From Pyruvatibacter mobilis (GTDB taxonomy: Bacteria > Pseudomonadota > Alphaproteobacteria > CGMCC-115125), in NCBI RefSeq assembly GCF_012848855.1, contig NZ_CP051630.1, positions 1,281,501-1,345,500 on the forward strand: 64,000 nucleotides of DNA. The letters run 5' to 3'. Shown here in pieces: positions 39,908-50,516 of this stretch. Under the pieces are notes generated by a model. It searched no databases and was not told where the DNA came from. It saw only the letters and a list, made by a program, of their open reading frames with translations. Position 1 is the stretch's first letter; each line of letters begins with the position of its first letter. The position numbers and the translations under genes were made by a program.

Positions 39908-40768
39908 TCAAGCGAGGGCGACGGGCAGGTCCGGGCGACCGCCCCATTCAGCCCATGAACCATCATAGAGGCTGCCGTCCGGCGCGCCTATGCGTGCGAG
40001 GGCCAGTGACACAATGGCTGCGGTGACACCGGAGCCACAGCTCGTGATGGCGGGCATGCCCACATTGACGCCACGGGTGGCAAACAGGGCCTCCAGCTGC
40101 TCCGGCGGGCGCAGGGCGCCTCCGGTGACAATCTCATCGAAGGGCACGTTGACCGAGCCGGGCATGTGGCCCCGCCGCAAGCCCGGTCGGGGTTCGTCTA
40201 CTTCGCCGTCAAAGCGCTGCGCCGGGCGGGCGTCGATTACCTGGCGGGAGCCATCAGTGATCGCCTGGCGGACGTCATCGAGGCCCGCAACGAGATCTGG
40301 TTTGAGCATCGCGGTGTAAGGCTGGGGGGCTGCGGTTACCGGTCCCGTCTCAATCGGCCGATCTTCTGCCTGCCAGCGCGGCAGGCCGCCATCCAGCACG
40401 GCCACGCGATCATGCCCCATGGCGCGGAACATCCACCATGCACGCGGCGCGGAGAAGAGGCCCGCGGTGTCATAGATGACGACCTGATCATCCCCGGTAA
40501 TGCCAAGTCCGCCGACAGCCTCAGCGAAGAGATGCGCCGGCGGCAGCATGTGCGGAAGGTCGGAGTTCGTGTCCGCCACCACGTCGATATCTAGAAAGAC
40601 CGCACCCGGAATATGTGCCTCGGTGTGCTCCGCCCGGGCGTCACGGCCGGTTGACGGCATGTGCCAGGAGGCGTCGACGACCTTGATGTCGCGCATACCG
40701 AGCCTGTCGGCCAGCCAACCGGTAGAGACGAGGACCCGCTCGTCCTCGGCGGCGCAAGCGCCTGTCAT
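39908..40768 (-). CDS. sseA: 3-mercaptopyruvate sulfurtransferase (tandem rhodanese)
   Basis: 286 aa with two rhodanese domains. The first (about 10-140, VDASWHMPSTGRDARAEH and DTAGLFSAPRAWWMF) is inactive in the family. The second carries the catalytic Cys244 in CGSGVTA, the loop form that favours 3-mercaptopyruvate over thiosulfate (CRKGVT). The start is the ATG whose A overlaps the cysteine synthase stop (ATGA). Coupling to cysteine synthase fits a role in cysteine catabolism or persulfide formation. Confidence 0.9.
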   Translation of the reverse strand: MTGACAAEDERVLVSTGWLADRLGMRDIKVVDASWHMPSTGRDARAEHTEAHIPGAVFLDIDVVADTNSDLPHMLPPAHLFAEAVGGLGITGDDQVVIYDTAGLFSAPRAWWMFRAMGHDRVAVLDGGLPRWQAEDRPIETGPVTAAPQPYTAMLKPDLVAGLDDVRQAITDGSRQVIDARPAQRFDGEVDEPRPGLRRGHMPGSVNVPFDEIVTGGALRPPEQLEALFATRGVNVGMPAITSCGSGVTAAIVSLALARIGAPDGSLYDGSWAEWGGRPDLPVALA

Positions 40769-41790
40769 TTCGTATCCAGCCATTGCGGCACCGGCAGACC
40801 CTTTTCCTTCAGGAAGGCCGGGTTGAACATCTTTGACTGATAGCGCGTGCCGTAGTCGCAAAGGATGGTCACGATGGTGTGGCCAGGACCCATCTTCTTC
40901 GCCAGGCGGATTGCACCGGCGACATTCACGCCGCTGGAGGAGCCAAGGCACAGGCCTTCATGTTCCAGCAGGTCGAAAGCGACGGGCAGTGCTTCCTCGT
41001 CGGGAATCTGGAACGGCTCATCCACAGACAGGCCTTCTAGGTTGGCCGTGATGCGGCCCTGGCCGATGCCCTCGGTGATCGAAGTGCCTTCGGCCTTGAG
41101 TTCGCCATGGGCATAGTAGTTGTACAGCGCTGCCCCCATCGGGTCGGCAATGCCTATGACGATGTCCTTTTTCTTCTCGCGCAGGCCCATGGCGACGCCT
41201 GCCAGGGTACCGCCGGTGCCGACTGCGCAGATGAAACCGTCGACCTTGCCGCCGGTCTGCTCCCAGATCTCCGGGGCCGTGGTCTGGATATGGCCCTCGC
41301 GATTGGCCACGTTGTCGAACTGGTTGGCCCAGATGGCGCCGTTGGGTTCTTTTTCGGCCAGTTCCTCAGCGAGGCGGCCCGAATATTTCACGTAGTTGTT
41401 CGGGTCCTTGTAGGGCACCGCCGGGACCTCGATGAGCTCGGCGCCAGCGAGCCGCAGCATGTCCTTCTTTTCCTGCGTCTGGGTCTCGGGGATCACAATC
41501 ACCGTGCGGAACCCCAAAGCATTGCCCACGAGGGCAAGGCCGATGCCCGTGTTGCCGGCGGTTCCCTCGACGATGGTGCCGCCGGGCTTCAGCGTGCCGC
41601 GCTTCACCGCATCCTGAATAATAAACAGGGCGGCACGGTCCTTGACCGACTGGCCGGGATTCATGAATTCCGCCTTGCCGAGGATATCGCAGCCGGTTTC
41701 TTCAGATGCCTTTTTCAGGCGGATCAGCGGCGTATTGCCGATGGCGTCCACAATGCCGTTCTTGATTCTGGAGCTGCCGGTGGCATTCAT
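40765..41790 (-). CDS. cysK: Cysteine synthase A (O-acetylserine sulfhydrylase)
   Basis: 341 aa, PLP-dependent, forming cysteine from O-acetylserine and sulfide. The PLP lysine is Lys50 in NPGQSVKDRAA; the substrate loop EGTAGNTGIG and the phosphate-binding GTGGTLAG are present, with LGSSSGVN near the C-terminus. The substrate loop has Ala-Gly where CysK commonly has Ser-Gly (TSGNTG), a form seen in the longer cysteine synthase group. The ATG at 41790 follows GAGGA. Cystathionine beta-synthase activity is a less likely alternative. Confidence 0.88.
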   Translation of the reverse strand: MNATGSSRIKNGIVDAIGNTPLIRLKKASEETGCDILGKAEFMNPGQSVKDRAALFIIQDAVKRGTLKPGGTIVEGTAGNTGIGLALVGNALGFRTVIVIPETQTQEKKDMLRLAGAELIEVPAVPYKDPNNYVKYSGRLAEELAEKEPNGAIWANQFDNVANREGHIQTTAPEIWEQTGGKVDGFICAVGTGGTLAGVAMGLREKKKDIVIGIADPMGAALYNYYAHGELKAEGTSITEGIGQGRITANLEGLSVDEPFQIPDEEALPVAFDLLEHEGLCLGSSSGVNVAGAIRLAKKMGPGHTIVTILCDYGTRYQSKMFNPAFLKEKGLPVPQWLDTK

Positions 41791-41945
41791 GGAGACTATC
41801 CTCGCTGATCGTCGTGTTTTCTGGCGATCCACATTGTCGGAATGTGGTTCCGCTCGGAGACTGGAAAATAGGAACCGGGGGCACGGGGCGCAACCGCGCG
41901 TGTTGGCGTGCACCGGCCAGCAGATAATTTCATCGGCCCTGCCGG

Positions 41946-41975
41946 TGATCCGGATGGCCTATGTGCCCGTAACTG
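41946..41975 (+). promoter_or_regulatory. Candidate ECF11 (RpoE/ChrR-type) promoter upstream of the ChrR-like gene
   Basis: TGATCC at 41946-41951, exactly 18 bases, then TAACTG at 41970-41975. It matches the RpoE promoter form I recall from Rhodobacter (TGATCC, N18, TAA). It points at the ChrR-like gene about 105 bases downstream. A second copy with identical spacing lies upstream of the photolyase gene. Confidence 0.6.
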
Positions 41976-42079: not shown

Positions 42080-42730
42080 ATGCCGCACGGATCCATTGAG
42101 TCCCCCACAGCGCCGACCACCGACTGGCTGGTCACTCAGCATGCTCTCGGCCGGTTGCCGCGGGCAGCCTCGGCTCTTGCAGAAGCCTATCTAGAGCTGA
42201 ACCCGCAAAAGCGTGCGGTAGCGGCGCGGATAGAGGACGTTGGCGGTTACCTGCTTGAGACCGCGGAGCCGTTTTCTCTTGGCTTCAAGATGGATGATGC
42301 GGCGCTGGTCGAACAGGCGCTGCCAGACGGGCCTGTCCACGACAGCGTTATGCCGCCATCGCTTGCGGAAATTGTAGGCAAACCTGCGGCGGACCTCGCT
42401 TGGAAATGGCGCGGCCGTGGCGCCTACGAGTATCGCCTCAAGGAGCTCGAAGATAACGGCATCATCGCGCGCCTGCTGCGCATTGAGCCGGGCCGCGCCA
42501 TGCCTCAGCACACCCATGGCGGCCTCGAGGCCACGCTCGTGCTGCAGGGCGCCTTCCGCGACGATGCGGGGCGGTTTGGCCCCGGGGACGTGGAGCTTGC
42601 CGATCACGCGGTTGACCACCGGCCGATTGCGGAACCGGGGGACACCTGCATCTGTTTTGCTGTGAACGAAGCGCCGATGCGGCTGACCGGGCCGTTCGGG
42701 CGCATTCTCCAGTCTCTCTTTCAACACTGA
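42080..42730 (+). CDS. ChrR-like cupin protein lacking the zinc anti-sigma motif
   Basis: 216 aa, homologous along its length to ChrR, the anti-sigma factor of RpoE (ECF11). The C-terminal cupin keeps its metal ligands: H144, H146, E150 (MPQHTHGGLEATLVLQGAF) and H180. The N-terminal region aligns (HALGRLPRAASALAEAYLEL), but residues matching the ChrR zinc ligands H6, H31, C35 and C38 are P12, Y37, N41 and K44. It therefore should not bind zinc there and may not inhibit a sigma factor. No sigma gene is adjacent. It may be a stress-induced paralogue or a cupin sensor. It begins a transcript with the SDR gene 11 bases later. Confidence 0.82.
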   Translation: MPHGSIESPTAPTTDWLVTQHALGRLPRAASALAEAYLELNPQKRAVAARIEDVGGYLLETAEPFSLGFKMDDAALVEQALPDGPVHDSVMPPSLAEIVGKPAADLAWKWRGRGAYEYRLKELEDNGIIARLLRIEPGRAMPQHTHGGLEATLVLQGAFRDDAGRFGPGDVELADHAVDHRPIAEPGDTCICFAVNEAPMRLTGPFGRILQSLFQH

Positions 42731-42741
42731 CAGGATTCCCG

Positions 42742-43557
42742 ATGGCTTCTCCGCTTGACCCGACACATGGTGCTGCCTGGGTGACGGGCGCCAGTTCAGG
42801 CATCGGGCGGGATGTGGCGCTGCAGCTTGCCGGTGACGGCTGGACCGTGGCCGCTACGGCCCGCAGCGAGGATGAACTGGCGTCGCTGGTGATGGAGGCC
42901 CACGCCCTCAAGGGACGCATCCATGCCTTTCCCGGCGACGTGACGGATCATGACCGCATGACTGAGATCGCGCGGGAGATCGCAAGCGGCGTGGGACCGC
43001 TGGCGCTGGCGGTTCTTAATGCCGGGGTCTATCTCCCGGTGGATGCGCGTAACTTCAGTGCCAGGGCGTTCGGCCCCACCTTCAACGTCAACCTTGTCGG
43101 AGTTGCCAATTGCCTCGGGCCGGTGATTGCCGCCATGCGCGAAGCAGGACAGGGCCAGATTGCCATTGTGGCGTCGGTTACGGGATATGGCGGGCTGCCG
43201 ACGAGTGCAGCCTATGGGGCCAGCAAGGCGGCGCTCATCAACCTGGCTGAGACGTTGCGCATCGAGCTTGATCCGATCGGCATCCATGTGCAGGTGATCA
43301 ATCCCGGCTTTATTGACACGCCGGCCACCAAAGATAATCCGTTCCCGATGCCGGCGCTCATGGCGTCGGACAAGGCAGCCAAGCGCATTGCCGCCGGTTT
43401 GCAGACAGATGCTTTCGAGATCACCTTCCCGAAACGCTTTACCTATGTGCTGAAACTGATCGGGTTGCTGCCCACGGCCTGGCGGCTGGGGCTTGTGCGC
43501 CGCGTGACGGGGTGGAGCGATCCTGCCACCACACCCGAGGTGCCGACCGGCGATTAG
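42742..43557 (+). CDS. Short-chain dehydrogenase/reductase
   Basis: 271-aa classical SDR. The cofactor motif is TGASSGIG near residue 14, then NAGVY, and the catalytic Ser with YGASK (Y-x3-K) around 150-160. Arg32/Ser-type residues after the second strand (AATARSEDELASL) suggest NADP preference. A C-terminal hydrophobic segment (FTYVLKLIGLLPTAWRLGLV) may attach it to the membrane. It is encoded directly after the ChrR-like gene; SDR genes are a regular part of RpoE/ChrR clusters as I recall them. The substrate is unknown, perhaps a lipid. Confidence 0.85.
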   Translation: MASPLDPTHGAAWVTGASSGIGRDVALQLAGDGWTVAATARSEDELASLVMEAHALKGRIHAFPGDVTDHDRMTEIAREIASGVGPLALAVLNAGVYLPVDARNFSARAFGPTFNVNLVGVANCLGPVIAAMREAGQGQIAIVASVTGYGGLPTSAAYGASKAALINLAETLRIELDPIGIHVQVINPGFIDTPATKDNPFPMPALMASDKAAKRIAAGLQTDAFEITFPKRFTYVLKLIGLLPTAWRLGLVRRVTGWSDPATTPEVPTGD

Positions 43558-43560
43558 GCT

Positions 43561-44070
43561 TCAGTCGGCGGCTTGCCCTGCTGCCAGGGCCGGAGCCTTG
43601 CGGATGACCTGGTAGACGGAACCGACCGGCAGGCCGAACTTGCTGACCCTGGCCGTGTTGATGAGGGCGCCTGTGCCATCAAGCTCGAAGCGATCTGCGA
43701 ATGTGAGCCGCCAGGGACGGCCATTGATCTTGAGCTCGATCGGGTAGCGCCAGTCCAGCCGGTTGCCGTGGACGCGGCCCTCGGCCACGTCGACGACGTC
43801 GTTGGCGGTGCCGCGGTAATGGCCATCACCCAAGACCTCGATCAGCCATTCACGGTCATCGGTCTCACCATCATTGTAGAGGAAGTGCTCTTCCACCCGG
43901 ATAGCATTGGGCAGTCGCGTTCCGGTGAGCTGGGCGGTGAAGGTCCGGCGCACGCGGCCGAACGGATCCCGGAACTCGCCTTCAGCCACAAGGCTGCCCT
44001 CGAGGAATTCTTCCAGTCGCAGGTCTTGGCCTGTCGGGGCGGACACCATGCTTGAGGACCTTTCACGCAC
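43561..44070 (-). CDS. DUF3833 family protein
   Basis: 169 aa, no signal peptide visible in this frame. The sequence fits DUF3833: LEEFLEGSLVAEGEFRDPFG, RVEEHFLYNDGETDDREWLI and ANDVVDVAEGRVHGNRLDWR. The family lacks a known function but recurs with cfa, DUF1365 and SDR genes. A later Met (MVSAPTG) is an alternative start. It is the promoter-distal gene of the photolyase-to-DUF3833 run. Two bases separate it from the convergent SDR stop. Confidence 0.78.
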   Translation of the reverse strand: MRERSSSMVSAPTGQDLRLEEFLEGSLVAEGEFRDPFGRVRRTFTAQLTGTRLPNAIRVEEHFLYNDGETDDREWLIEVLGDGHYRGTANDVVDVAEGRVHGNRLDWRYPIELKINGRPWRLTFADRFELDGTGALINTARVSKFGLPVGSVYQVIRKAPALAAGQAAD

Positions 44071-44100: not shown

Positions 44101-45453
44101 TCAGATATCTGCCGCAGTGTCGATGGTCTTGCGCAGCTCTCCCTGAGCATCCCGGCTCAATGGGAAATTCCACATAAGTACGAGCGCGGGCAGCTTCAGG
44201 ATCACCGGCAAACCGGCATAAAGCATTGAAAGTGCGAATAAACTCGACGGAGTGTTGCCATCCGCGCCGGGGGCCAGATCAGCCCGGAACCCGGCAAATT
44301 CGAGCAGCGGGAACGCAATTCCGGCCGCAAGGGCCAAAGACAGCTTGGTGGCGAGGCTCCACAGGGCGAAATAGAGGCCTGTCCGTTGCTCGCCGGTTTC
44401 CGCCGTATCCACATCCACGACATCTGCCTGGATGGCGGCGGGCAGGACGAGGTCAGCCCCAACGGCAAAACCCGACAGAACCACGATGAGGCCGAAGGTC
44501 CAGATGTCGCCAGCGCTAAGGAACGGAACCCATAGGAAGGTGACGCAGGCGAGGGTCATGGAACCGACCCAGACCCGGTGTTTGCCGAACCGCCGCGACA
44601 GGGCAACCCAGCCGGGGATGGCGATGACGCCGGACAGGAAATAGGCGAAGAGCAGCGGCCCCACCATCTCCGGCGCCACAAGCACGTGGGTGACGAACAG
44701 GACAAAGAGCGAGGCAGGCAGGCCGTTGGCCCAGCCGTTGATGAGAAACGCCGAGATTAGGCGCGTGAAAGCCTTGTTGCCGCGCAGCACCTTCAAGCCA
44801 TCACGCAGGCGGATGCGGGCGTGGCCTCTGTCCCGTTCGCGCGGCACGCGCCACAGGGCGAGAAGGACCGTTGAAGGCACAAGGAGCAGCAGGGCGATTG
44901 CGAGGCCGTGCAGCGCGTCACCCAGGCCCGCAGACGTGCTTCCGTCCCAGACACCCAGCAAGACGGGCAGGGCCGTCGCCAGCAGGGTGCCCAGCACCGT
45001 GAAGCCTTCCCGGCGGGCCGTTACGTCGGTGCGGCCGTCATAGTCCTCGGCCAGCTCGGCGCCCCAGGCATTGTAGGGCAGCAGCATGAGGGTCCAGCCG
45101 ATGGAGAGAACCGTGCTCCAGATGAGGAGATAGCCCGCATCCGGACGATCGGGCGGCACGAACACCATCCAGAGTGCAAGGAGCGTGGGCAGCATGCCCA
45201 CGAGCAGCCATGGCTTGCGGCGGCCAAGGCCGCCGAGCAACGGCACATGCACCCGGTCGCTGACATAGCCGATGAGGGGATCACTGACCGCGTCAAGCAC
45301 CCGCACCGCCAGCAGCACGGTGCCGATGAGCGCCAGCGAGACGCCAAGCTCACCGTAATAGGTGGGCACGAAGACGTAGACGGGCAGGGTGAGGGCGGCG
45401 AGGGGCAGGCCCGGCAGGGCGTACCACCACTGCTGGGCTGTGGTGACTTTCAT
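44101..45453 (-). CDS. MFS transporter of the GPH (MelB-like) group
   Basis: A 450-aa membrane protein with 12 helices. The early segment LLAVRVLDAVSDPLIGYVSD carries the two aspartates of the GPH cation site. The loop after it (GRRKPWLLVG) is the usual GPH motif. Annotated relatives are called sugar:cation symporters, but its place among lipid-modification genes suggests another substrate, possibly a lipid. It is encoded 10 bases after the Cfa-type gene. Confidence 0.85.
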   Translation of the reverse strand: MKVTTAQQWWYALPGLPLAALTLPVYVFVPTYYGELGVSLALIGTVLLAVRVLDAVSDPLIGYVSDRVHVPLLGGLGRRKPWLLVGMLPTLLALWMVFVPPDRPDAGYLLIWSTVLSIGWTLMLLPYNAWGAELAEDYDGRTDVTARREGFTVLGTLLATALPVLLGVWDGSTSAGLGDALHGLAIALLLLVPSTVLLALWRVPRERDRGHARIRLRDGLKVLRGNKAFTRLISAFLINGWANGLPASLFVLFVTHVLVAPEMVGPLLFAYFLSGVIAIPGWVALSRRFGKHRVWVGSMTLACVTFLWVPFLSAGDIWTFGLIVVLSGFAVGADLVLPAAIQADVVDVDTAETGEQRTGLYFALWSLATKLSLALAAGIAFPLLEFAGFRADLAPGADGNTPSSLFALSMLYAGLPVILKLPALVLMWNFPLSRDAQGELRKTIDTAADI

Positions 45454-45463
45454 GGATGCAGGA

Positions 45464-46723
45464 TCAGGCGCGGGCCAGCGTGACCTGCGTCACATCCGTG
45501 TTGGCCGAATTGAACCCGGCTTCGCAATAGGCGAGGTAGAAGTGCCAGAGACGGCGGAAGCGGGTGTCGAAGCCCAGAGGTTCGATCTTTGGCCAGGCGG
45601 CGGCAAAACGCTCCTGCCACTGACGCAGGGTCCGGCCGTAATCGAGCCCGAACTCCCGGCTGCCCACAAAGCTGAGCCCTGCCTGGGCGATCTGGTCGCG
45701 CAGGGCAGTGGGCGACGGCAGCATGCCGCCGGGGAAGATGTAGCGCTGGATGAAATCTGTTGAGCGGCGATAGTCCTCGAAGGCGTGATCCGCAATGGTG
45801 ATGATCTGCAGCGCGGCCTTGCCGCCTGGTTTCAACACATCGCGGACCTTGCCGAAATAGGTCGGCCAATAGGCTTCGCCAACGGCTTCGAACATTTCAA
45901 TAGAGGCCACCCGGTCATAGGTTTCCGGGATGTCGCGGTAATCCTGGAAGCGGATTTCGACACGGTCGCTGAGGCCCTGACGCGCCATCCGCTGGCGGGC
46001 GAATTTGAGCTGCTCTTCGGAGATGGTGACGCCTGTGACGCGGCAGCCAATCTCGGTCGCGGCGTATTCCGCAAAGCCGCCCCATCCGCAGCCGATCTCC
46101 AGGACATGGTGCTCGGGCCGGAGATCCATGGACCTGGCGAGGGCGCGATACTTTTCATGCTGGCCCGAGGCCAGATCATTCATGCCCTCTTTGAAGATGG
46201 CGGACGAGTAGGTCATGGTCGGGTCAAGCCACAGGCCATAGAACTCGTTGCCGAGATCATAATGCGCATGGATGTTGCGGCGTGCCCCACGGCGCGTGTT
46301 GGGCCGCATCTTGTGATAGAGGCGGTGCACCCAGTCGAACATGCCCATGCGCAGCGCCTTCATCATCATCTGGCGGTTTCGGGCAAAGACTTCGAGGAAG
46401 CGGGCAAGGTCCGGCGAATCCACGTCACCGGCGATATAGGCTTCGGCGAAGCCTATGCCGCCGCCAGTGAGAAGCCGGCGCACGGCGCTGTAATTGTTGA
46501 GCTGGAGTTCGCCATGACCGCCGGGCCGGCGGCCTTCGAAACGCAGGGCGGTGCCGCCGGGGAGCGTGACGGTGACGCTGCCGCTTTCGATGCCGAGCAG
46601 CATGCGCAGCGCCATCCGCACGAGGCGGGGCACGCCGCTGAGGGCATCGAGAACTTCCGGTGTCGCCTGAACCGGGGCACTGCTGTTACGCACAGCACCA
46701 CTTGAAAGAACTGACTGGGTCAT
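45464..46723 (-). CDS. cfa: Cyclopropane-fatty-acid-synthase-type SAM methyltransferase
   Basis: 419 aa from the ATG at 46723 (a TTG three codons earlier is the alternative and has the better AAGG spacing). The N-terminal lipid-binding part is followed by HAHYDLGNEFYGLWLDPTMT, the SAM site VLEIGCGWGGFAEYAA and then IEMFEAVGEAYW, all standard for Cfa. It methylates acyl chains of membrane phospholipids, giving either cyclopropane rings or methyl-branched precursors. Its partners here (DUF1365, FAD oxidase) suggest a product more complex than a cyclopropane. Confidence 0.88.
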   Translation of the reverse strand: MTQSVLSSGAVRNSSAPVQATPEVLDALSGVPRLVRMALRMLLGIESGSVTVTLPGGTALRFEGRRPGGHGELQLNNYSAVRRLLTGGGIGFAEAYIAGDVDSPDLARFLEVFARNRQMMMKALRMGMFDWVHRLYHKMRPNTRRGARRNIHAHYDLGNEFYGLWLDPTMTYSSAIFKEGMNDLASGQHEKYRALARSMDLRPEHHVLEIGCGWGGFAEYAATEIGCRVTGVTISEEQLKFARQRMARQGLSDRVEIRFQDYRDIPETYDRVASIEMFEAVGEAYWPTYFGKVRDVLKPGGKAALQIITIADHAFEDYRRSTDFIQRYIFPGGMLPSPTALRDQIAQAGLSFVGSREFGLDYGRTLRQWQERFAAAWPKIEPLGFDTRFRRLWHFYLAYCEAGFNSANTDVTQVTLARA

Positions 46724-46728
46724 CTTGA

Positions 46729-47622
46729 TCAAGCTGCCTTGGCGTTACTGCTATCTGGATAGCTTGTTGCAGGAGCCTTGGCCGGGTCAATAGCGTTGCC
46801 GCGCGGCCCGCCCGAGGGCCCGTCGGCGCTGGCCAAGGCTGGCGGTTTTCCGGGGCTGCGGAAGAAGGGCACGCCCTTCAGCCACAGGCGCAGGGCTTCA
46901 AAGTGGATTGCGGCCATCACTTTCACGGTCATCAGCGGATAGATGACAAACGCTGTTGCGAGGCTGCGCGTGGTGAAGGGCCGCGCCTCGCCATCAAAGG
47001 TTGCCAGCAGGAAAGGGCCGTTCTCATCGCTTTCACGGATGTGAATGGCAATACGCTCCGCCGGGTCATCCAGAGCAAAGTCGTAGGTGGCTGCCATGCC
47101 GACGAAAGGGGAGACGTGGAGGTTCTTGTCGCGCGTCTGGCGGACAATGCGGCCATCTCGTTCAGGTGCCTGTACCGGCGCCACGTAGCTGTGCACGTCC
47201 CCGAAGGTGTTGTGCACCTGGTAGACCAAAGTCGTCAGGTGGGCCCGGGCGTCGTAGCAATAGTAAACGGACAGCGGGTTGAACACATATCCGAGGATGC
47301 GCGGATAACAGAGGAGCCGGATGTGACGCGGCTCGGAAATTCCTGCCTCCGTCAGCAGACTGACGATGTGGGCGCGGAGCGATGAGCCGTCGCGCAGGCC
47401 ATGGTCCTTGCGGTGGAAGCTGAAAAGGTTGAACCGGTCGATGGAGAAGAGGCGGCTGCGACGGCCTGCTTCCTGCACCCTGTCGATATCGATGAGCATC
47501 GAGAAGACGCGATAAATGAAGCGGTGGGTGCGGGGCCTGGAGCGTGCGTGCATGACCCTGCCGAAATAGAGCCGCGCCGGGGGCGCGCTGATGCCGTTTG
47601 CCGGGGCCTCGGTAATGCTCAT
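46729..47622 (-). CDS. DUF1365 family protein
   Basis: 297 aa. DUF1365 features are LYFGRVMHARSRPRTHRFIY at the N-terminus, RLLCYPRILGYVFNPLSVYY, FGDVHSYVAP and NLHVSPFVGM. I recall that relatives in Rhodobacter take part in furan fatty acid synthesis or the singlet-oxygen response, but cannot verify the pairing. The gene overlaps the FAD oxidase gene by 4 bases and leads into cfa, so the three are coupled. The C-terminal ~35 residues are low complexity and variable. Confidence 0.86.
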   Translation of the reverse strand: MSITEAPANGISAPPARLYFGRVMHARSRPRTHRFIYRVFSMLIDIDRVQEAGRRSRLFSIDRFNLFSFHRKDHGLRDGSSLRAHIVSLLTEAGISEPRHIRLLCYPRILGYVFNPLSVYYCYDARAHLTTLVYQVHNTFGDVHSYVAPVQAPERDGRIVRQTRDKNLHVSPFVGMAATYDFALDDPAERIAIHIRESDENGPFLLATFDGEARPFTTRSLATAFVIYPLMTVKVMAAIHFEALRLWLKGVPFFRSPGKPPALASADGPSGGPRGNAIDPAKAPATSYPDSSNAKAA

Positions 47623-48920
47623 TCGGCAGCCTCGACGAAAGGTAGCAGACCAGGCTTGGCGCTTGTGAAGCGGGCGGCCTGCTGCAGCATTTCAGCGGCC
47701 TTGAGGCCGGACGACAGGCCATCCTCATGGAAGCCATAGCCACACCATGCACCGCAGTACCAGGTATTGTTGGTGCCCTGGATGGTGTCGATCTCCGTCT
47801 GCGCCTTGAGGGCGGCCGTATCAAACATCGGGTGATCATAGGTGATGTGCGCGAAGGTCAGCTCCGGACGCGGCGGGCGGGCCGGGTTGAGCGTCACGAA
47901 GAGCGGATAGCGCTCGTCGATGTTCTGCAGCTTGTTCATCCAGTATGTCACCGACAGGGCATCGCCCCTGTCCAACCGTCCTGGTGACAGATAGTTCCAC
48001 GCCGACCACGTACGGCGGCGGCGCGGCATCAGGGAAGGATCCCGGTGCAGGTAGACCTCGTTCGGCGTGTAGCGGATCGCGCCGAGGATTTCACGTTCAG
48101 CGTCAGACGGGTCGGCAAGCATCGCCAGAGCTTCATCTGAGTGGGCGCCGATGACGAGGTGATCGAAATGCTCCCGCTGGCCATTGGTGTCGGTCACCGT
48201 GATACCGTTGCCTTCACGGGTGACGCCGGCAATGCCTGTACCAAGGCGTATCCGGTCTGCGAAAGGAGCCGTCAGCTTCTTGACGTAGCTTTGCGACCCG
48301 CCGGTCACTGTGCGCCATTGGGGGCGGTCATGATCAATCAGGCGGTGATTGCGGAAGAAGTCGAGAAAGCTACGCGCAGGGAAACGCATCATCTCGCTGG
48401 CGGGCGTGGACCAGATGGCCGCGCCCATGGGCAGCAGATAGTCGCGCATGAAGCGGCTGGAGAAGTTCCGCTCACGGAGATAGTCGCCGAGCGAGACTGT
48501 TTCCGCCATGCCAGCAGCGAGATCCTCACGCGCGATCTTGTTGAAGCGGAAGATCTCACGCAGCATGAACAGGAAGCCCGGGCTGAACAGGTTGCGGCGC
48601 TGGGCGAAGACGCTGCGCACGGACTGGCCCGACCACTCAAACCGGCCGTCCATGGTGGAGACGGCAAAGCTCATGTCGCTGGCCTCGGTCTCAACGCCGA
48701 GCTCCGCAAACAGCTTTGTCATCTTCGGGTAGTTGAGCTCGTTATAGACGATGAAGCCCGTGTCCACGGGGATCTCAACGCCATCGTAATCAACGGTGAC
48801 CGTGTTGGAGTGCCCGCCGATGCGGCTGTTCTTTTCATAGACAGTCACCTCGTGCTCGCGGCACAGCGTATAGGCCGCCGCGTTGGCCGAGATGCCGGTT
48901 CCTGCAATGGCGATTTTCAT
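47619..48920 (-). CDS. FAD-dependent amine-oxidase-like protein
   Basis: 433 aa from the ATG at 48920. The dinucleotide-binding motif is IAIAGTGISANAAAY, followed by the acidic strand end VTVYEKNSRIGGHSNTVTVD typical of the flavin amine oxidase/phytoene desaturase group. The C-terminal FAD segment is WYCGAWCGYGFHEDGLSSGL. Its constant partnership with DUF1365 and Cfa proteins suggests desaturation or oxidation of a membrane acyl chain. It is encoded 43 bases after the photolyase gene. The reaction is inferred. Confidence 0.85.
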   Translation of the reverse strand: MKIAIAGTGISANAAAYTLCREHEVTVYEKNSRIGGHSNTVTVDYDGVEIPVDTGFIVYNELNYPKMTKLFAELGVETEASDMSFAVSTMDGRFEWSGQSVRSVFAQRRNLFSPGFLFMLREIFRFNKIAREDLAAGMAETVSLGDYLRERNFSSRFMRDYLLPMGAAIWSTPASEMMRFPARSFLDFFRNHRLIDHDRPQWRTVTGGSQSYVKKLTAPFADRIRLGTGIAGVTREGNGITVTDTNGQREHFDHLVIGAHSDEALAMLADPSDAEREILGAIRYTPNEVYLHRDPSLMPRRRRTWSAWNYLSPGRLDRGDALSVTYWMNKLQNIDERYPLFVTLNPARPPRPELTFAHITYDHPMFDTAALKAQTEIDTIQGTNNTWYCGAWCGYGFHEDGLSSGLKAAEMLQQAARFTSAKPGLLPFVEAAE

Positions 48921-48963
48921 CGGCTGCTGTCTTTCCTTGGTTATCCAGGCAGGGCCTGTCGGC

Positions 48964-50415
48964 CTAGCTGGCCTTCTTGATGTCGTCATAGCCGCCGAGT
49001 GCCCGGTCGCGGGCGGCGGAATGGTCAACGATGGGTTCGGGGTAGTCCTGGCCGAGGGTGACACCTGCCTCCTTCAGAACGTCATCGGGCGCTGTCCATG
49101 GGGAGAACAAATATTTGTTGGGAAGGTTCGCCAGCTCCGGCACATACCGGCGGACATAGTCTCCGTCGGGATCGAACTTCTCGCCCTGGGTGATGGGATT
49201 GAAGATGCGGAAATAAGGCGCGGCATCGGCACCGGACCCTGCCACCCACTGCCAGCTTGCGGAATTGTTGGCGAGGTCGGCATCGACCAGGGTGTCCCAG
49301 AACCAGGTCTCTCCATGGCGCCAGTGGATCATAAGGTGCTTCACGAGAAAGGATGCCACGATCATCCGCACACGGTTGTGCATCCAGCCGGTCTGCCAGA
49401 GTTCGCGCATGCCCGCGTCGACCATGGGATAGCCCGTCTGGCCCTCCTGCCAGCGCTTCAGGTCATCGTCATTGTCACGCCAGGGGAAGTCATCGAACTT
49501 TTCCTGGTAGTTGTCCGTCGGCAGGCTGGGGAAGTGATAGAGCAAGTGATGGGAGAACTCCCGCCAGCCGAGCTCGGCGATGAATTTCTCGATGCTCTTG
49601 GCCGTTCCGTCCTGCTTCTCGGCCTGCGCGCGCGCCGCGTGATAGATCTGGCGCGGCCCGATGTCGCCGAAATGCAAATGCGGGGACAGACCGGATGTCG
49701 CTCTGACACCGGGGCGATCGCGCTTGTCCTTGTAGTCGGCAGCGGCCTCGTCGAGGAACCATGCCAGCCGGTCCTTCGCGCCCTGCTCACCGGGTGTCCA
49801 GATCTCAGCAAAGCCCTTTGCCCAGTCAGGCTTGGTGGGGAGCAATCCCCAGTCATCCAGCTTCTCTGTCCGTGGATGCTGCTTGGGTGTTTTGAGCGAC
49901 TTTGGCGCCTTTATGGGCTCGTCCGGGGACGGACAATCACGCATGCAGGCACGCCAGAAGGGGGAGAACACGCGGTACGGGCCGCCGGACTTGGTTTCCA
50001 CCGTCCACGGCTCGAACAGGAGGCTCGCATTGGAGCTTTCTACTTCGATGTCCCGCTCGCGCAGACAGGCCTTGAGGGCCTTATCACGCTTGATGGCATA
50101 GGGTTCATAAAGGCGGTTCCAGAAAACCGCGGTGGCGCTGATCTCATCGGCAAAATCGGGCAGCACTTCTGTCGCATTGCCTGCGCGGAGGACTAGCTTG
50201 GAGCCCAGGCCCTTGAGGTCCTTGTCGAGGCTGTCGAGGGCGTGGTGGAGGAACCAGCAGCCGGCGCCGCCCATGGCCCACTCTCCGGGCGTCTCGTCAT
50301 CCAGGATGTAGAGGCAGATGACCTCTTTTTCCGTCCCGGCAGCCGCGCTGAGCGCGGGATTGTCCGCGATGCGGAGATCCTGCCGGAACCAGAAGATGAC
50401 GCGATCCTTGCTCAC
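48964..50415 (-). CDS. phrB: Deoxyribodipyrimidine photolyase (class I CPD type)
   Basis: Light-driven repair of cyclobutane pyrimidine dimers. About 483 aa. The N-terminal alpha/beta domain opens VIFWFRQDLRIADNPALSAA. The FAD domain contains GWREFSHHLLYHFP, WQEGQTGYPMVDAGMRELWQ, TGWMHNRVRM and NNSASWQWVAGSGADAAPYF, all standard. GTG at 50415 follows GGTGA; a TTG two codons upstream is also possible. A candidate ECF11 promoter lies 72 bases upstream. It heads the run through FAD oxidase, DUF1365 and cfa. Confidence 0.93.
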   Translation of the reverse strand: MSKDRVIFWFRQDLRIADNPALSAAAGTEKEVICLYILDDETPGEWAMGGAGCWFLHHALDSLDKDLKGLGSKLVLRAGNATEVLPDFADEISATAVFWNRLYEPYAIKRDKALKACLRERDIEVESSNASLLFEPWTVETKSGGPYRVFSPFWRACMRDCPSPDEPIKAPKSLKTPKQHPRTEKLDDWGLLPTKPDWAKGFAEIWTPGEQGAKDRLAWFLDEAAADYKDKRDRPGVRATSGLSPHLHFGDIGPRQIYHAARAQAEKQDGTAKSIEKFIAELGWREFSHHLLYHFPSLPTDNYQEKFDDFPWRDNDDDLKRWQEGQTGYPMVDAGMRELWQTGWMHNRVRMIVASFLVKHLMIHWRHGETWFWDTLVDADLANNSASWQWVAGSGADAAPYFRIFNPITQGEKFDPDGDYVRRYVPELANLPNKYLFSPWTAPDDVLKEAGVTLGQDYPEPIVDHSAARDRALGGYDDIKKAS

Positions 50416-50486
50416 TATCAATTCACCGCTTGCGTTAAAGAACCAAACTATAGGCCGGCAGGCCGGGTGCCTGCCTGATTATGGTT

Positions 50487-50516
50487 CGTCTACGCAGGCA
50501 GGGTGGGATTGGATCA
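50487..50516 (-). promoter_or_regulatory. Candidate ECF11 (RpoE/ChrR-type) promoter upstream of the photolyase gene
   Basis: On the minus strand, TGATCC (50516-50511), exactly 18 bases, then TAGACG (50492-50487). The -35 and spacing are identical to the site before the ChrR-like gene. It sits in the 150-base gap between the betaine transporter operon and phrB. In R. sphaeroides a photolyase gene is a known RpoE target, as I recall. Confidence 0.6.

Follow-up and report, generated by a model that had tools for sequence, protein, structure and literature searches.

An orphan, zinc-free ChrR in the ECF11 regulon of Pyruvatibacter mobilis

The window, by which is meant the whole 64,000-nucleotide stretch of Pyruvatibacter mobilis DNA that was analysed, carries at 42080..42730 (+) a real and evolutionarily constrained chrR gene of the ECF11 regulon, which is encoded away from the sigma factor gene and whose product lacks all four zinc ligands of the anti-sigma domain (ASD). 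Loss of the zinc site recurs among natural ChrRs, and most of the zinc-free proteins are still linked to a sigma gene. The chances appear about even that the window gene specifies a trans-encoded, sigma-induced ChrR that provides feedback on the ECF11 sigma factor.

An orphan ChrR lacking the anti-sigma zinc site

The 216-aa window protein, which begins with an ATG codon, consists of a zinc-free ASD (residues about 13-61; 42116..42262, +), a linker and an intact cupin domain (residues about 105-195). It had originally been predicted to be a ChrR homologue over its whole length, and this is borne out by a match to the ChrR family model TIGR02451 above the curated cut-off (136.9 bits against 124.5, residues 15-215) and by alignment with Rhodobacter sphaeroides ChrR in the structures 2z2s and 2q1z (9e-35 and 2.9e-32, respectively). 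A Pfam Cupin_7 match is also present; the score against the NCBIfam equivalog StressantisigmaChrR (NF051881) is 121.2 bits, below its cut-off of 300. The TIGR02451-type cupin-like domain retains the HHEH metal set, with H144, H146, E150 and H180 corresponding to ChrR H141, H143, E147 and H177. In the ASD, both pairwise and census alignments place P12, Y37, N41 and K44 at the positions of the zinc ligands H6, H31, C35 and C38, and the ZAS zinc site H-x24-H-x3-C-x2-C is therefore absent. Both the intact cupin set and the loss of the four ligands were part of the original prediction, and the ChrR residue numbers that it quoted agree with those given in PMC6852236. Relocation of the ligands within the N-terminal region, which the prediction had named as a possible refutation, was rejected because residues 1-62 contain no cysteine and only two histidines (H3 and H21). 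A chance alignment or frameshift was likewise rejected on the basis of the full reading frame, the TIGR02451 match and the presence of orthologs in the three other genomes of the genus, which carry PYNQ, PYNQ and PYNM at the four ligand sites.

As the original prediction also stated, the window chrR is not preceded by a sigma gene. An ECF11 sigma gene directly upstream, as in an rpoE-chrR operon, was not found, and the flanking genes are a divergent pyridoxal phosphate (PLP)-dependent, cysteine-synthase-like enzyme (40765..41913, -) before chrR and a short-chain dehydrogenase (SDR; 42742..43557, +) directly after it on the same strand. A search of the genome (3.33 Mb, one contig) for an ECF11 sigma and a second chrR, which the prediction had proposed as a check, detected exactly one ECF11-type sigma (E 1.9e-131; next-best protein 1.1e-17) and two full-length ChrRs, the designation 'ECF11-type' being assigned throughout by similarity to this sigma and position beside a ChrR rather than by an ECF-group model. 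The sigma gene lies apart from the window chrR, at 3088666-3089274 of the contig, and is followed by the second chrR (locus L001; pair at 3088666-3089960). The expectation of a canonical rpoE-chrR pair elsewhere in the genome was hence correct as to the pair but not as to its ChrR, which has Q, Q, R and I at the four zinc-ligand positions. Although the L001 protein resembles the window ChrR in lacking every ligand, it differs in adjoining the sigma gene, in possessing a canonical helix 1 and in having no detectable RpoE-type promoter before that sigma gene. The zinc site of the sigma-linked ChrR is partly lost in two sister genomes as well, G001 and G003 (RHCA). A recent duplication within the genus was considered and rejected, weakly, in that a single clade of the two genus ChrRs is only marginally excluded (p-AU 0.043).

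Promoter and gene neighbourhood

An exact RpoE/ECF11-type promoter motif, TGATCC-N16-CGTAA, is located at 41946..41972 (+) and begins 134 bp before the chrR start codon; no other match of this form occurs in the 3.33 Mb genome, and 0.01 would be expected in the window. The promoter of R. sphaeroides RpoE is described as TGATCC(N15)GCGTA (PMC5036791) and those of Shewanella RpoE2 as TGATCC...CGTAAT (PMC4336711). Judged by sequence, the regulon pattern TGATCC-N16-CGTA is found exactly upstream of the window chrR. This shorter form matches 11 times genome-wide (reversed control, none), including at 50490..50516 (-), before the photolyase-like gene of the window, and elsewhere before genes for a fasciclin-domain protein and a DUF6134 protein; several of the others overlap or adjoin coding sequence and are possibly chance matches. 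One match, at 44178-44204 (-), falls in the 3' end of the MFS gene at a distance of 134 bp from the start of the DUF3833 gene downstream, and is possibly an internal promoter or fortuitous.

The genes beyond the SDR are all on the opposite strand and comprise those for a DUF3833 protein (43561..44070, -) and an MFS/GPH-type transporter (44101..45453, -), both regarded as regulon neighbours, a cyclopropane-fatty-acid (CFA) synthase family methyltransferase (45464..46732, -), a DUF1365 protein (46729..47622, -), an FAD-dependent amine-oxidase-like protein (47619..49064, -) and a product that, from its sequence, we take to be photolyase-like (48964..50421, -). With sporadic losses, this order (chrR-SDR, DUF3833, MFS, CFA synthase, DUF1365, FAD oxidoreductase, photolyase) recurs on one side of most members of the zinc-free orphan group described below, and on the other lie GNAT, rhodanese and PLP enzyme genes, the divergent PLP enzyme marking the conserved slot. 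The SDR is kept beside orphan chrR at loci L070, L071, L076 and L175-L178, and loci of the family f71 retain little of the order. Most of the same genes are found divergent from rpoE-chrR in the Rhodobacter-related loci L012-L014, where no match to the CFA synthase was seen, and the FAD-dependent amine-oxidase-like gene is divergent from rpoE-chrR in the Rhodobacter-type loci L012-L015. The exact promoter and the photolyase-like and cyclopropane-synthase neighbours uphold the earlier assignment of the window gene to the regulon.

When 350 bp upstream of each locus were scanned with at most one mismatch and an antisense control, the motif was detected before 10 of the 11 zinc-free orphans (eight exact; control 0/11) and 12 of the 13 orphans that retain HHCC (control 0). 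Among sigma-linked units it precedes 14 of the 27 that are zinc-free (control 2) and 83 of the 100 HHCC units scanned (control 42), the many antisense matches in the last set probably reflecting a divergent operon with its own promoter. The lower frequency before zinc-free than before zinc-bearing sigma-linked units is uncorrected for relatedness. Within 350 bp upstream, no motif with up to two mismatches was found before the sigma genes of the genus (L001, L072 and L073), nor, at the same tolerance, before six solitary ECF11-type sigma genes (L169-L174). Wherever chrR and sigma are separated in the loci read, the promoter is found with chrR. Natural zinc-free ChrRs suggest an alternative circuit in which the feedback promoter is placed on the anti-sigma gene instead of the sigma gene. 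The gene that follows the solitary sigma in five of the six genomes (L169-L172 and L174) presumably encodes an NADPH:quinone oxidoreductase-like protein; at L174 its frame is seen in pieces only.

Zinc loss among ChrR relatives and the anti-sigma domain

The extent of zinc loss was assessed in a census of 153 aligned, mostly alphaproteobacterial ChrRs, made up of the window protein, matches from the genome survey, four additional loci and the 2z2s chain. All four ligands are kept in 115, three in none, two in 5, one in 12 and none in 21, leaving 38 proteins (about a quarter) without a full set, here collectively termed zinc-free, while the cupin HHEH set is intact in 153/153. Among the 38, 27 directly follow an ECF11-type sigma gene, as against 102 of the 115 with a full set, and 22 of these 27 retain at most one ligand. 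Because about a quarter of ChrRs lack the full site and most of these lie beside a sigma gene, zinc in the ASD is probably not essential in ChrR relatives, as far as sequence comparison can indicate, and its loss is not evidence against anti-sigma function. The original suggestion that zinc loss goes with lost repression is not supported in that form, given these sigma-linked proteins, the pair in the same genome included, and RseA, RskA and RsiW, whose anti-sigma domains need no zinc (PMC7406223; PMC6852236). Seven named plasmid-borne ChrR loci comprise six with HHCC and one with RHCS, the latter beside a sigma gene on a plasmid of Phyllobacterium sp. T1018.

Zinc-free ChrRs are scattered in both the 153-row tree and a tree of a chosen 50-row subset (25 zinc-free, 25 zinc-bearing), for which monophyly of the zinc-free proteins is rejected (p-AU 0.00012), and the loss is therefore recurrent; parsimony on the 153-row tree gives 11 changes of zinc state, many inner branches being weak. 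Nine zinc-free orphans nevertheless cluster together (four of the genus, three of family f19 and two of f71; SH-aLRT 92 in the 153-row tree), as do the eight sampled in the 50-row tree (86/94), so that support for this sigma-unlinked group, of which the window chrR is a member, is moderate. A common clade for all orphans of the conserved slot, L146, L163 and L078 included, is conceivable, though the trees put those three apart; the same-slot orphans in G125 and G128 (zinc-free) and G045 (HHCC) are not placed with the group by the trees.

By sequence, the orphan ASD is under purifying selection like that on the cupin domain. The four orphans of the genus share an identity of 0.69 over the ASD and 0.80 over the cupin domain, against 0.27 over the linker, and dN/dS between L038 and L039 is 0.040 and 0.043 for the ASD and cupin, respectively, with dS near saturation. 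Helix scores, for which the reference was the profile of zinc-bearing sigma-linked ChrRs and the helix boundaries were set by hand on 2z2s numbering, place the orphans far below the profile in helix 1: mean z is -3.2 for zinc-free orphans and -1.0 for zinc-free sigma-linked ChrRs, with -6.1 for the window protein and 0.0 for L001. Unusual residues at three positions, W10, Q14 and L17 in ChrR numbering, account for much of the drop, and the orphans retain the core D-x-L-x-x-x-(Y/H)-A-x-G-x-L. Helix 3 of the window ChrR is near normal (z -0.2), and helix 4 scores -1.1 in zinc-free orphans, +0.2 in zinc-free sigma-linked ChrRs, -0.9 in the window protein and +1.2 in L001. Helix 1 is normal in the f71 orphans, although one, L153, is abnormal in helix 4 (z -4.6). 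Two sigma-linked ChrRs from small genomes of family f31 (L080 and L167) have a shortened zinc-free N-terminal domain in which part of helix 1 is missing.

An AlphaFold2 model of the window ChrR, built from five sequences (pLDDT 66.8), contains N-terminal helices at 13-22, 28-40 and 42-61. With regard to a class I anti-sigma bundle, in which helix 1 contacts sigma4 and helix 4 contacts sigma2, the helices are predicted at modest confidence, with helix 4 near normal and helix 1 diverged. The structure prediction that had originally been proposed agrees with the ChrR assignment, in that ChrR chains ranked first in Foldseek (6e-17; TM 0.57 by query length), the top six PDB matches being chains of 2z2s and 2q1z; the rmsd of about 13 is probably attributable to free orientation of the two domains in the model. 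Asparagine, aspartate and serine are helix-capping residues, and one of the three occupies position 35 (ChrR numbering) in 25 of the 38 zinc-free ChrRs. In the model, N41, which stands in place of C35, precedes the helix at 42-61, and such an N-cap could hold the start of helix 3 without zinc. Glutamate at position 57 is present in 28/38 zinc-free and 23/115 zinc-bearing ChrRs (Fisher 3.5e-9); a compensatory role for E57 was dropped, there being only three phylogenetically independent pairs.

Possible functions of the orphan ChrR

Across 385 genomes of the class, with thresholds of E <= 1e-15 for ChrR and E <= 1e-32 for the ECF11-type sigma, ChrR was detected in 151 and the sigma in 148, both occurring in 145, ChrR only in six and the sigma only in three. 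The ChrR-only genomes are G002 (81% complete), G039, G163, G239, G324 and G337, and in G163 and G324 a weaker sigma adjoins ChrR. The sigma-only genomes are G119, in which a weak ChrR-like match (3e-14) lies beside the sigma, G165 and G250. The last of these (f19, 99% complete) has no ChrR match at E <= 0.01 and may represent an ECF11 sigma without ChrR. Six genomes (G021, G152, G329, G073, G191 and G128) encode no full-length ChrR other than the orphan, and no ChrR adjoins their lone ECF11-type sigma, making the orphan, by elimination, the candidate partner of that sigma.

The explanation given about an even chance is that the orphan functions as a regulator of the ChrR family and is a second ChrR whose gene lies apart from that of its sigma. 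Its ASD would fold without zinc, an asparagine in place of C35 capping helix 3 and packing holding the remainder as in RseA. Sigma freed by singlet oxygen or peroxides would switch on the orphan chrR, and the newly made protein would rebind sigma and close the response, giving negative feedback in trans in which the signal-sensing part would be the invariant cupin metal site rather than the ASD zinc. This explanation is favoured because the genome has one ECF11-type sigma whose own ChrR is zinc-free with normal helices 1 and 4, and because zinc-free ChrRs are so often sigma-linked. It draws also on the co-occurrence of ChrR and ECF11, the six genomes in which an orphan is the sole full-length ChrR, the placement of the promoter before orphans and not before the sigma genes of the genus, the constraint on the ASD and the frequency of capping residues at position 35 together with the position of N41 in the model. 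Counting against it, helix 1 of the orphans lies far off the family profile, which is the main evidence against sigma binding and points to a possibly changed or lost sigma4 contact; R. sphaeroides ChrR depends on zinc (PMC6852236), and G250 may have a sigma without any ChrR.

The same divergence of helix 1, the sigma4-binding helix, keeps alive the original idea of a sensor or decoy. Sigma binding may have been lost, with the altered N-terminal domain binding another partner or oligomerising and the cupin domain acting within the singlet-oxygen regulon as a sensor or enzyme that depends on metal. This is rather unlikely, although the divergence is confined to orphans, the window chrR adjoins SDR and lipid genes rather than a sigma gene, the genome has another, sigma-linked ChrR, and the cupin ligands are fully conserved. 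The six genomes in which a lone ECF11-type sigma has no other full-length ChrR tell against it, as do the near-normal scores of the window protein in helices 3 and 4 and the normal helix 1 of the f71 orphans, the last point being tempered by helix 4 of L153. An altered helix 1 could instead mean an altered partner, and the genome encodes seven further proteins with sigma region 2, but the ECF11 promoter motif, the ECF11-regulon neighbours and the co-occurrence of ChrR with ECF11 make it very improbable that the window ChrR acts as anti-sigma factor on some other ECF sigma.

The presence of two ChrRs for one sigma in the genus would also suit a buffer that binds sigma in competition with the sigma-linked ChrR and is not itself a signal-responsive repressor. 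The intact cupin metal set of the window ChrR argues otherwise, since R. sphaeroides ChrR requires E147 and H177 in order to respond (PMC6852236), and such a buffer is quite improbable. Loss of every zinc ligand and the lack of an adjacent sigma gene might finally be taken to indicate a decaying, functionless duplicate. This is most improbable, given the unbroken reading frame, the presence of an ortholog in each of the four genomes of the genus, the kept promoter and the conserved gene order, and it is largely refuted by purifying selection, with low dN/dS in both domains.

Several known systems resemble the window ChrR in part. R. sphaeroides ChrR, the partner of sigma-E (ECF11), shares with the window protein its full architecture, the HHEH set, the RpoE motif and regulon neighbours, but differs in possessing ASD zinc ligands, an rpoE-chrR operon and an unaltered helix 1. 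The zinc-free class I factors RseA and RskA have a helical anti-sigma domain that needs no zinc, as is predicted for the window protein, but unlike that cupin-bearing ChrR they do not belong to the ChrR family. RsiW of Bacillus subtilis binds sigma independently of zinc (PMC7406223), yet retains the zinc motif that the window ChrR has lost. Zinc and non-zinc domains are mixed in the groups AS27 and AS19-1, and AS11, the ChrR group, is not given as mixed in the relevant passages (PMC7406223). No paper on zinc-free ChrR or on ECF211 appeared among the matches listed in searches of the open-licence PMC literature, and a dedicated search there for anti-sigma factors without the zinc-binding motif was likewise negative.

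On how ChrR perceives singlet oxygen, a review calls the role of the zinc in sensing unknown (PMC6852236), and a 2019 study reports that the ASD zinc site reacts fast with singlet oxygen and that existing data do not exclude a part for it (PMC6432622). Natural zinc-free, sigma-linked ChrRs permit a direct test, since a continued response in such proteins would mean that sensing does not need the ASD zinc. A broader reading is that a recurrent zinc-independent branch of ChrR exists and that the sigma of this genus is under two zinc-free ChrRs, the sigma-linked one basal and the trans-encoded one under the sigma's own promoter. It is put forward tentatively, as somewhat short of an even chance; if it is true, the essential sensor of singlet oxygen would be the invariant cupin metal site and could not be the ASD zinc.

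A different arrangement of two ChrRs is seen at locus L162 (G326:C68), where two tandem chrR genes lie behind one ECF11-type sigma gene.
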